NCBI RefSeq assembly: GCF_004342225.1
Contig: NZ_SMAR01000002.1
Location: forward strand, 124,001 to 188,000
Source: Martelella mediterranea
Lineage (GTDB): Bacteria > Pseudomonadota > Alphaproteobacteria > Rhizobiales > Rhizobiaceae
DNA length: 64,000 bases
Direction: 5' to 3'
A model generated the notes under the pieces. The model saw only the letters and a program-made list of their open reading frames with translations, had not been told where the DNA came from and did not search any database. Shown here in pieces: positions 60,219 through 62,875 of this stretch (positions within the stretch are counted from its first letter, which is position 1; each line of letters opens with the position of its first letter). The translations under genes were made by a program, and so were the position numbers.

Positions 60219-60605
60219 AATCCCTCTCTCAGCGGTCCTTTCAAGGCTCTGACCGCCCAATCCAATCAGAAACTAGCACATCTTGTTTCAGACATACCCC
60301 CCCAAACAGACCATATTTCTACAAATATTTTAGCCGTTCTGTTGCTTTTCGTGAGGTCAGAAAGCCGGCGCGAATGAAGCTTGCTTCTGCCCGTGAATCA
60401 GAAGCGGAAGCAAGGTTCCGTTTCGTAAAGCCTGTGCATGACACAGGAATGATCACGCACTCTGACAAACTTCAAGGCGCATCGCCTCCGAATCAGGCAT
60501 GGCTTAAACAGCCTGAAAACGCGACATATTGATAACTATGATCAATGACGAACTATATATGGTATAGTTTCACTTCGGGCTGAATTCCATTTCGGGGGCC
60601 TGACA
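60219..60605. promoter_or_regulatory. 387-bp divergent region between nucleotidyltransferase gene and nrdD, with two dyads
   Basis: Near nrdD are two inverted repeats: TTGAT-N7-ATCAA (60529-60545) and AACTATA-N5-TATAGTT (60551-60569), 36-77 nt before the ATG. The first has FNR/FixK half-sites but a 7-nt rather than 4-nt spacer. The second is AT-rich and resembles in outline an NrdR box. The rest of the region shows no gene I can support. Confidence 0.5.
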
Positions 60606-62648
60606 ATGACTGAAACGAACGCTGCTGCATCTTTGCTGAAGGGGTCAAACCCGGGCTATGTGGTTAAACGCGATGGCCACAAAAAGCCTTTCGACGCCGG
60701 TAAAATTGAGCGCGCGATCCTCAAAGCTGGCGAAGCGACAGGCGCTTTCAGCGCACAGGAAGCCTATCGGCTGGCCGAACAGGTCATGAAAGTGCTGCGC
60801 CACTCAGTATCCGGCGAGGCGCTCGAAATCGAACGCATTCAGGACGTTGTTGAACAGGTTCTCATTTCCGGTGATTATTTCGAAACCGCGCGTGCCTATA
60901 TCGTCTATCGCGAAAAACACGCCAAGCTGCGTGAAACCGGCAAGGTTGCCGTCGATGTCATTTCCTCAATCGATGAATATCTCGATCGTTCCGACTGGCG
61001 GGTCAACGCCAATGCCAATCAGGGCTATTCGCTTGGCGGGCTGATCCTCAATGTTTCGGGAAAGGTGGTTGCCAATTACTGGCTTTCCCACGTTTATGAC
61101 CGCGCCATCGGAGAGGCACACCGCGCCGGTGATCTTCATATTCACGACCTCGACATGCTGTCGGGCTATTGCGCCGGCTGGTCGCTTCGAACGCTTCTGA
61201 CCGAAGGGCTGAACGGCGTGCCGGGCAAGGTCGAGGCCGATCCGCCGAAACACATGTCGTCGGCCGTCGGCCAGATCGTCAATTTCCTTGGCACGCTGCA
61301 GAATGAATGGGCCGGCGCCCAGGCGTTTTCCTCCTTCGACACCTATATGGCCCCCTTCATCCGCAAGGACGGCCTTTCCTATGAGGATGTGCTACAGTCC
61401 ATTCAGGAACTGATCTACAATCTGAACGTCCCCTCTCGCTGGGGCACGCAGACGCCGTTTACCAACCTCACCTTCGACTGGGTCTGCCCGGACGACCTGA
61501 AGGACGAGCGCCCGATCATCGGCGGTGAGGAAATGCCGTTTGCCTATGGCGAGCTGCAGGTCGAAATGGACATGATCAACCGTGCCTATATGGAGATCAT
61601 GACCAAGGGCGATGCCAAGGGCCGGGTGTTCACCTTCCCGATCCCGACCTACAACATCACGCCGGATTTCCCCTGGGAAAGCGAAAACGCCACGCGGCTG
61701 TTCGACATGACGGCGAAATACGGCCTGCCCTATTTCCAGAATTTCCTGAACTCCGAGCTGTCACCCAACATGGTGCGCTCGATGTGCTGCCGGCTGCAGC
61801 TCGACCTGACCGAACTCCTGAAGCGCGGCAACGGCCTGTTCGGCTCGGCCGAGCAGACCGGTTCGCTCGGCGTCGTCAGCATCAACTGCGCCCGTCTCGG
61901 CTTTACCCACAAGGGCGATGAGGCCGGTCTTCTGGCCCGTCTTGACGAGTTGCTTGATCTTGGCCGCGACAGCCTCGAAATCAAGCGCAAGGTGATCCAG
62001 CGTCTGATCGATGAGGGGCTTTTCCCCTATACCAAGCGCTATCTCGGTACACTGCGCAATCACTTCTCCACGCTTGGGGTGAACGGCATCAATGAAATGA
62101 TCCGCAATTTCACCGATAACCGCGAGGACATCACCACTGAGGAAGGCTATGCACTGGCGCTGAGACTGCTCGACCATGTGCGCGAAAAGATCGTCTCCTA
62201 TCAGGAAGAAACCGGTCACCTCTACAATCTGGAAGCCACACCCGCTGAAGGCACGGCGCACCGTTTTGCGCGTGAGGACCAGAAGCGTTTCCCCGGCATC
62301 ATCCAGGCCGGTACGGAAGAACAGGCCTATTACACCAATTCCAGCCAGTTGCCCGCCGGTTTCACCGATGATCCCTTCGAAGCCCTTTCGCGGCAGGAGG
62401 CCTTGCAGAAGAAATACACCGGCGGCACGGTTTTGCACCTTTATATGGGATCGCGGCTTTCGTCCGGTGAGGCCTGCAAAAACCTCGTGCGCCGCTCTCT
62501 GGAAAATTTCCGCCTGCCCTACATCACCGTCACGCCCACATTCTCGATCTGCCCGAAACACGGCTACATTGAGGGTGAGCATCAGTTCTGCCCGAAATGC
62601 GATGCGGAACTGATCGAACGCAAACGTCAATCCTGTGTCGAATGCTAG
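60606..62648 (+). CDS. nrdD: Anaerobic (class III) ribonucleoside-triphosphate reductase, core without glycyl-radical motif
   Basis: The 680-residue protein has an N-terminal ATP-cone (about 18-110: VVKRDGHKKPFDAGKIERAI) and the ten-stranded barrel with the thiyl-radical Cys189 in SGYCAGWSLRTLL and Cys394-Cys395 in RSMCCRLQLDL. The zinc region near the end has C649-PKH and C662-PKC, then an extra C677-VEC at the C-terminus. It ends there: the RVxGY glycyl-radical loop that normally follows is missing and is found in the next gene, in a different frame. It reduces NTPs to dNTPs without oxygen, using formate as reductant in related enzymes. Confidence 0.93.
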   Translation: MTETNAAASLLKGSNPGYVVKRDGHKKPFDAGKIERAILKAGEATGAFSAQEAYRLAEQVMKVLRHSVSGEALEIERIQDVVEQVLISGDYFETARAYIVYREKHAKLRETGKVAVDVISSIDEYLDRSDWRVNANANQGYSLGGLILNVSGKVVANYWLSHVYDRAIGEAHRAGDLHIHDLDMLSGYCAGWSLRTLLTEGLNGVPGKVEADPPKHMSSAVGQIVNFLGTLQNEWAGAQAFSSFDTYMAPFIRKDGLSYEDVLQSIQELIYNLNVPSRWGTQTPFTNLTFDWVCPDDLKDERPIIGGEEMPFAYGELQVEMDMINRAYMEIMTKGDAKGRVFTFPIPTYNITPDFPWESENATRLFDMTAKYGLPYFQNFLNSELSPNMVRSMCCRLQLDLTELLKRGNGLFGSAEQTGSLGVVSINCARLGFTHKGDEAGLLARLDELLDLGRDSLEIKRKVIQRLIDEGLFPYTKRYLGTLRNHFSTLGVNGINEMIRNFTDNREDITTEEGYALALRLLDHVREKIVSYQEETGHLYNLEATPAEGTAHRFAREDQKRFPGIIQAGTEEQAYYTNSSQLPAGFTDDPFEALSRQEALQKKYTGGTVLHLYMGSRLSSGEACKNLVRRSLENFRLPYITVTPTFSICPKHGYIEGEHQFCPKCDAELIERKRQSCVEC

Positions 62649-62671
62649 AATAGTCCCCGAAAGGAACCGAA

Positions 62672-62875
62672 ATGTCCGTTCTTGAGAAAACCCGGCCCGC
62701 TGATGCGCAGATCACGCTTACCGATGAAGAACGTCAGCCCTGCGAAATCTGGACCCGTGTGATGGGTTATCACCGTCCGGTTTCGTCTTTCAACCGAGGT
62801 AAGAAGGGTGAGTTTGCCGAGCGTCTTTATTTCAAGGAGGCGTCTAATGACGCAGAAACAGGTCAGCGCCGCTGA
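62672..62875 (+). CDS. Separate glycyl-radical domain of class III ribonucleotide reductase
   Basis: A 67-residue protein with RVMGYHRPVSSFN (residues 29-41; Gly32 is the expected radical site), then GKKGEFAERLYFKE. This is the C-terminal loop of NrdD, here with its own start, AAAGGAA ribosome site and a roughly 28-residue N-terminal extension. An in-frame TAG lies at 62651 and the frame differs from nrdD, so it is not a read-through. It starts 23 nt after the nrdD stop and overlaps nrdG by 29 bp, forming a coupled three-gene unit. By function it resembles a permanent version of the GrcA spare part of pyruvate formate-lyase. A frameshift in an ancestral fused gene is the alternative origin. 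Confidence 0.85.
   Translation: MSVLEKTRPADAQITLTDEERQPCEIWTRVMGYHRPVSSFNRGKKGEFAERLYFKEASNDAETGQRR

Follow-up and report, generated by a model that had tools for sequence, protein, structure and literature searches.

A predicted two-chain anaerobic ribonucleotide reductase in Martelella mediterranea with its glycyl-radical domain on a separate small gene, and relatives of that gene in bacterial and viral sequences

The window analysed here is a stretch of 64,000 nucleotides (nt) from Martelella mediterranea (contig NZ_SMAR01000002.1, positions 124,001 to 188,000). Three of its genes lie in tandem on the plus strand: an nrdD core gene, a 67-codon gene that carries the glycyl-radical loop (hereafter the tail), and nrdG (Table 1). 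These genes very probably encode an obligate two-chain class III (anaerobic) ribonucleotide reductase (RNR) whose radical would sit on a detachable subunit, an activity predicted from sequence. We favor this reading because the two proteins are complementary halves of one Pfam model, the split is conserved among genomes, and the tail gene is able to lie unlinked from the core. The original prediction had described an nrdD that ends after a CVEC motif without an RVxGY loop, with the loop encoded in a different frame by a separate 67-codon gene that has its own ribosome site and is followed by nrdG, and this layout was confirmed.

The Pfam NRDD model (PF13597, length 562) is covered without a gap by the core (positions 2-532, E 5.9e-171) and the tail (531-562, E 1.1e-7), and a search of the whole M. 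mediterranea genome found only these two NRDD pieces. The core has an ATP-cone, a barrel, active-site cysteines, and a zinc-type motif, and it scored 1123.6 bits against NF006126 (cut-off 548). Its C-terminal end, ..CPKCDAELIERKRQSCVEC, lies 15 residues past the zinc-type motif, and the catalytic chain holds no RVxGY radical loop. That loop is found on the tail, whose sequence includes ..DEERQPCEIWTRVMGYHRPVSSFNRGKKGEF.. and whose radical loop region reads RVMGYHRPVSSFN. The tail fell under every NCBIfam cut-off, and a sequence search of the PDB with it returned nothing at E 10. Its Pfam matches at E up to 0.01 were to NRDD only, and it did not belong to the Gly_radical family of the GrcA type, which resembles pyruvate formate-lyase (PFL). 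The locus otherwise had the features by which class III RNRs are recognized, namely an NRDD domain, active-site cysteines, an RNR fold, and an NrdG2 activase encoded nearby. When the AlphaFold2 (AF2) model of the core was compared with solved structures, ranks 1-36 of the 50 PDB matches listed were class III RNR chains (E 1.2e-27 to 5.1e-17). We take Cys189 to be the counterpart of Cys79 in T4 NrdD, and the active-site roles of Cys189, Cys394, and Cys395 are likewise our assumption; the SCCR of T. maritima NrdD sits a few columns from the MCCR of the core in the alignment.

Table 1. Features of the nrdD-tail-nrdG locus, in positions of the window.
Feature	Position	Strand	Evidence
nrdD core subunit, 680 amino acids	60606..62648	+	Pfam NRDD 2-532/562, ATP-cone; AF2 model matches solved NrdD
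ATP-cone, residues 18-106	60657..60923	+	PF03477, E 7.3e-26
Cys189 codon	61170..61172	+	Invariant in 42 aligned split cores
Cys394-Cys395 codons (MCCR), candidate radical-cysteine loop	61785..61790	+	Invariant in 42 aligned split cores; role predicted
Zinc-type motif CPKHGYIEGEHQFCPKC, retained on the core	62550..62600	+	C649, H652, C662, and C665 invariant in 42 split cores
Core C-terminal extension (DAELIERKRQSCVEC), mostly predicted helix	62601..62645	+	CVEC end not conserved
Shine-Dalgarno-like AAAGGA of the tail gene	62660-62665	+	Sequence, by eye
Glycyl-radical subunit (tail), 67 amino acids, separate gene	62672..62875	+	Pfam NRDD 531-562/562; in all 11 NRDD genomes of 41
Lead LTDEERQPCE, tail residues 16-25, candidate docking element	62717..62746	+	Typical of split tails
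Gly32 codon of RVMGY, predicted radical glycine	62765..62767	+	Invariant
Shine-Dalgarno AAGGAGG of nrdG, within the tail gene	62834-62840	+	Sequence, by eye
nrdG, NrdG2-type radical S-adenosylmethionine (SAM) activase, 220 amino acids	62847..63509	+	TIGR02495, 190.7 bits vs cut-off 131.15; ATG at 62847, 29 nt overlap with the tail gene

The split is conserved well beyond this genome. Eleven of the 41 near genomes (its own included) have NRDD, one of them from another family of the same order, and all 11 are split. The same arrangement was thus found in related genomes, as had been proposed, and the contrary possibility of a decayed copy among fused relatives failed, since none of the near relatives with NRDD is fused. 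NRDD matches were found in 46 of 385 genomes of the class and 57 of 398 of the phylum, and the near, class, and phylum sets together gave 109 distinct genomes with a match. Among these, 47 are split with a linked tail, 53 are fused, four have an unlinked tail only (G143, G313, G339, G707), and two are split within an E. coli-like NrdD (G198, G750); the last three were left unassigned (G393, a fragment; G417, tail only; G729, partial). These arrangements were read from match tables and inspection of loci, many of the fused ones from the table alone, and the tables hold at most three scored candidates per genome, with some tails missing (e.g., that of G042). In a further set of named genomes, the best 80 loci comprised 60 split, one fused, two cut by contig ends, and 17 without a core in the flank. 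No ratio of split to fused can be drawn from that set because the query was a split-type tail and only the best 80 loci were taken.

Across 110 split loci, counted once per genome and place and including a few sequences present identically in two collections, the tail lies in frame 0, 1, or 2 relative to the core in 32, 43, and 35 cases, which is near random. The distance from the core stop to the loop ranges from 22 to 388 nt, and some spacers hold several stops. The ratio of nonsynonymous to synonymous change (dN/dS) was 0.054 to 0.102 over 45 codons of the tail, compared with 0.045 to 0.105 over 240 codons of the core, in the seven of ten comparisons with unsaturated synonymous change, these seven also being high in such change. 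Judged by these ratios, the tail is under purifying selection. A frameshift that broke a fused nrdD, whether as a damaged copy or a sequencing error, has in its favor that fused NrdD is common (53 of the 109 genomes). We ruled it out and give it next to no weight: all near genomes with NRDD are split, the spacers vary and all three frames are used, the tail dN/dS stays at 0.05-0.10, and four genomes have the tail elsewhere. A single frame repair, the outcome anticipated for an error, cannot explain near-random frames together with unlinked tails. The split is therefore neither decay nor sequencing error.

The same data bear on whether a programmed ribosomal frameshift or stop read-through yields one fused chain. 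Most split genomes have core and tail side by side, and 17 of the 32 same-frame loci have a single stop between them, as read-through would have it. We nevertheless rejected this explanation and regard it as highly improbable, because the frame is not fixed, the distance to the loop varies with several stops in some spacers, and unlinked tails are out of reach of any such event.

Two subunits encoded as independent genes, as the two-chain reading has it, are seen most directly in the four genomes with an unlinked tail only. In G707 the tail and an nrdG-like gene lie 8-9 kb from the core on one contig, the pattern of locus L093. In G313 the tail and an nrdG-like gene lie beside rpsT- and dnaA-like genes (by eye), and the core is on another contig without a tail after it. 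In G143 and G339 the tail is on a separate contig with neither core nor nrdG adjoining. Another locus, L085, has a tail with nrdG (by eye) and no core. Extra tails were found in seven genomes, three of them metagenome-derived, and in eight comparisons their identity to the linked tail of the same genome placed them at rank 1 to 7 of 109. The settings of unlinked tails include chromosomal ones, beside prolyl-tRNA synthetase and FtsZ genes (L247) or a ClpA/B-like gene (L240), and a prophage-like region with an integrase, an Rz-like spanin, and an endolysin, where a stand-alone radical-domain gene occupies L089:1727-1909. Of 112 proteins near 21 unlinked tails, 104 were used in a neighbor scan; five matched Phage_integrase and three a cell wall hydrolase. 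The exchangeable radical subunit of the original prediction gains indirect support from these unlinked and extra tails and from the tails in viral contigs described below.

A simple working order for the two chains can be proposed. The large chain would hold the ATP-cone, barrel, active-site cysteines, and zinc-type motif, and the 67-residue chain the radical-storing glycine. NrdG would place the radical on Gly32 of the small chain, which would insert its RVMGY loop into the barrel beside the cysteines in the manner of a fused NrdD C-terminus, with the usual catalysis to follow. Docking would probably be non-covalent, with the (D)EERQPCE lead against the C-terminal region of the core. If oxygen cut a radical chain, a fresh 67-residue chain could then take its place, with no need for a new 680-residue enzyme. 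A detached loop is plausible given that passages of the report on P. copri NrdD, a fused enzyme, describe a mobile radical domain whose loop is buried beside the cysteine (PMC11226230).

For the joint between the chains, a cysteine pair at the core end and Cys24 of the small protein had been suggested. CVEC is absent in 10 of 10 near relatives, whose cores end in IAC, LVN, or AE, and at least two Cys occur at the C-terminus in 17 of 100 distinct core ends, so the Cys-pair joint was rejected. The other half of the idea fared better in that Cys24 is conserved in nearly all tails (100 of 105 from hosts, 60 of 63 from viruses), although the CVEC proposed as its partner is not. Just before the loop, the lead R[QT]xCE is present in nearly all host tails (104 of 105) and viral split-type tails (62 of 63), and in only 4 of 60 stand-alone tails from a second viral scan for the fused type. 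This conserved lead (..DEERQPCE) would be a better candidate docking element than CVEC. Short Cys-rich ends do recur (CVEC, ACAC, SCCA, CPCSR), with a Cys pair past the loop in 38 of the 105 tails from hosts and 12 of the 63 from viruses, and a redox role for them is possible.

A comparable locus is carried by plasmid pHG1 of Cupriavidus necator H16, where a 676-residue core without the loop is followed 142 nt on by a 66-residue tail gene, named nrdD in the record. With no loop on this core, the radical is probably carried by the tail protein. A passage that cites other papers reports NrdDG of C. necator H16 as essential for complete denitrification, its loss being offset by vitamin B12 (PMC2864759).

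Several observations weigh against the two-chain reading or its exchange step. Among the four unlinked cases, three come from draft assemblies in which different contigs hold core and tail, and only G707 has both on one. The core model is of moderate quality (predicted local distance difference test, pLDDT, 75.4; predicted template modelling score, pTM, 0.67). The tail alone gave no confident fold (pLDDT 63.5), as expected of a chain that folds on its partner, but this is uninformative. The passage on C. necator speaks of NrdDG without naming the tail gene, and B12 offsets the loss (PMC2864759). Lastly, most split genomes show a single tail, beside nrdG, and exchange may therefore be rare. That single tail also speaks for a neutral fission, in which both chains are needed and oxygen repair or exchange was never selected. 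Such a fission would fit the two-chain reading and not the repair step, and we consider it a real though lesser possibility: the extra tails are close to the genome's own linked tail and many viral contigs have a tail alone, which suggests that free tails are useful.

The history of the split was evaluated in a tree of 120 cores (5 of 125 rows were left out, two short and three near-duplicates), made by quick search with the Shimodaira-Hasegawa-like approximate likelihood ratio test (SH-aLRT) only, midpoint-rooted without E. coli-type NrdD, and with long branches flagged. One branch (SH-aLRT 95) has on one side all 103 split rows, the four unlinked-tail rows, and four fused rows, and on the opposite side the nine other fused rows. 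Three changes between fused and split are needed on this tree, and the main clade is most simply explained by one old fission and two re-fusions; further fissions may have occurred, as the inner branches are weak. A fused Simkaniaceae NrdD inside the split clade still carries LTDEEREPCEVWTRVMGY and reads CDSILLKEKASLTDEEREPCEVWTRVMGY, that is, the core end and then a tail with its lead, and R-Q-x-C-E is also retained in two of the other three fused members. Members of the split clade include metagenome-assembled genomes named Acidobacteria and Actinobacteria and the isolates Sutterella wadsworthensis, Parasutterella secunda, and Neorhizobium huautlense.

Other arrangements were seen alongside the main clade. 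In G198 and G750 (loci L022 and L079), from one genus, a separate split affects an E. coli-like NrdD: the core ends in a stop, after which a same-frame reading frame, 60 residues from the first ATG, contains ARTRRITGYL. An odd tail-like gene, EKYSRIMGYFQTISAANIGKRAEFRQRRFF, at L092 (G109:C238) falls outside both main tail types. Tail matches were also found in 28 plasmid records, some apparently within full reductases, and three were inspected. On a Bradyrhizobium japonicum plasmid (L052), an insertion sequence (IS) element interrupts the nrdD core and the tail and nrdG remain.

Stand-alone tails are also frequent in viral sequences, for which the best 80 of 237 relatives (tail alignment as query) and 80 of 82 (fused-type tail as query) were scanned. 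In the first scan (L121-L200), 79 of 80 loci had no core in a flank of up to 6 kb, and 38 records searched whole, any of which may be a fragment, held the tail in 38 and a core in one. Of the 78 split-type tails parsed, 58 had 2.5 kb of upstream sequence and 49 had flanks of 1.5 kb on either side. Upstream stretches of up to 2.5 kb showed no core remnant for 77 of the 78, the exception being the locus with a core. In the second scan (L284-L363), 68 loci were stand-alone by the rule that the loop lies no more than 250 codons from the frame start, 8 were long or fused, one was open, and three were unparsed; L362 duplicates L192 in both contig and tail. Whole-record searches for 47 of these, any of which may again be a fragment, found 43 without a core and four (viral records G831, G846, G860, and G863) with a core whose NRDD match ends at 528-532, before the loop, and a separate tail gene, tens of kb apart in two of them. 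Record G829 (L295, L298) has two stand-alone fused-type tails. At L141:3356-5809, a viral core of 818 residues has its NRDD match interrupted near the middle, perhaps by an intein.

The viral tails lie among integrases, endolysins, spanins, and portal, tail, and replication proteins, in scans that took in 109 of 122 direct neighbors and, at ten viral loci, 124 of 130 proteins. Of 38 viral records, just 9 had a match to Terminase_6N, 7 of them above the cut-off. PHROG 4132, to which no function is assigned there, matched all five split-type phage tails scanned as well as the window tail; four of five fused-type phage tails matched PHROG 487 (NrdD-like) and one matched nothing. Among cultured phages (INPHARED), no stand-alone tail was seen in the matches to three tail queries, which comprised two records at E 0.01 (window tail; fused-type tail) and three at E 1 (another split-type tail). 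Annotations mention a reductase in two of these records, and the unannotated MT835493 has the loop inside an 802-residue NrdD.

The phage tails could instead act as decoys or inhibitors of the host enzyme or of NrdG, or could have arisen as by-products of attachment sites located in the host's tail gene. Counted without one helicase-like query (i132), an integrase-type gene is found no more than 1.5 kb from 14 of 80 tails of the viral split type and from 5 of 25 unlinked genome tails, at 100-130 nt in some cases, as would fit a by-product. We think this unlikely, since the radical glycine and loop are invariant in the aligned viral tails and no integrase-type gene was found in 63 linked named-genome loci with seven queries. 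An attachment-site origin was rejected as the general cause of the phage copies on the integrase counts. The tails at 100-130 nt (L126, L127, L135, L136, L138, L144, L145, L249, L251, L263) look as if carried at a phage attachment end.

The viral stand-alone tails are candidates for spare parts of a glycyl radical enzyme that is not PFL. We give about an even chance to a broader reading in which free NrdD radical domains are widespread, interchangeable radical cartridges. They would be obligate subunits in a large, mainly Pseudomonadota clade and would exist as additional copies in some genomes. Many phages would carry them as well, in versions for both split and fused NrdD, so that the host's anaerobic supply of deoxynucleoside triphosphates is maintained or restarted.

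Around the locus itself, few regulatory features stood out. An FNR-type box at 60529 has two mismatches, and the window holds 32 such sites against 31.25 expected by chance. Between 60250 and 63700, promoter-like sites numbered 2 against 1.6 in shuffles and terminator-like sites 6 against 4.0, and no tRNA was found in the window. The same genome has another RNR-type gene of 739 residues that scored under the class II cut-off and is probably class I, so that the class III enzyme would serve as the anaerobic alternative in M. mediterranea.

Fused class III NrdD (T4, T. maritima, P. copri, S. thermophilus) shares with this enzyme the core fold, the ATP-cone (not in all), the active-site cysteines, the zinc-type motif, the glycyl-radical loop sequence, and the NrdG partner, whereas here the radical loop is a separate 67-residue protein with an extra conserved lead. 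The PFL spare parts GrcA/YfiD of a host and Y06I of phage T4 are, as described in part of one paper, likewise small free radical-loop proteins for a large partner (PMC8683613). The tail differs in matching NRDD, and in split hosts it is the sole radical loop and no repair extra; the parallel with GrcA drawn earlier is therefore fair for a possible mode of working and does not extend to family. The class II NrdJa/NrdJb of Pseudomonas aeruginosa is also an RNR in two chains but, in the passages concerned, uses adenosylcobalamin and no glycyl radical (PMC4520616, PMC9669993). Phage nrdD genes in pieces are, in excerpts of two reports, interrupted by mobile elements (introns, inteins, or endonuclease genes), and splicing has been shown to remove some of these (PMC3653736, PMC12363816), whereas in the main clade here the cut immediately precedes the radical loop and the tail has a start of its own.

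RNR tables excerpted from two papers assign the radical of class III to a glycine that belongs to the enzyme itself (PMC4390871, PMC2795772). No description of a separate NrdD radical subunit was found in the literature searched, which did not cover the 1999 C. necator enzyme paper. As the small gene stands in databases under the name nrdD, it is annotated, yet as far as we found not recognized as a subunit. According to part of a 2021 paper on PFL spare parts, only two spare parts had been validated, and others for other glycyl radical enzymes were considered possible (PMC8683613). If our reading is true, the tails would be the first spare parts for such an enzyme other than PFL, and a likely function could be assigned to PHROG 4132. 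With this locus and the phage genes, the spare-part question becomes directly testable in class III RNR, and with a detachable 67-residue subunit, activation, damage, and radical transfer could be examined in separate components. Across a large bacterial clade, the radical would sit on a separate subunit and not on the enzyme itself.
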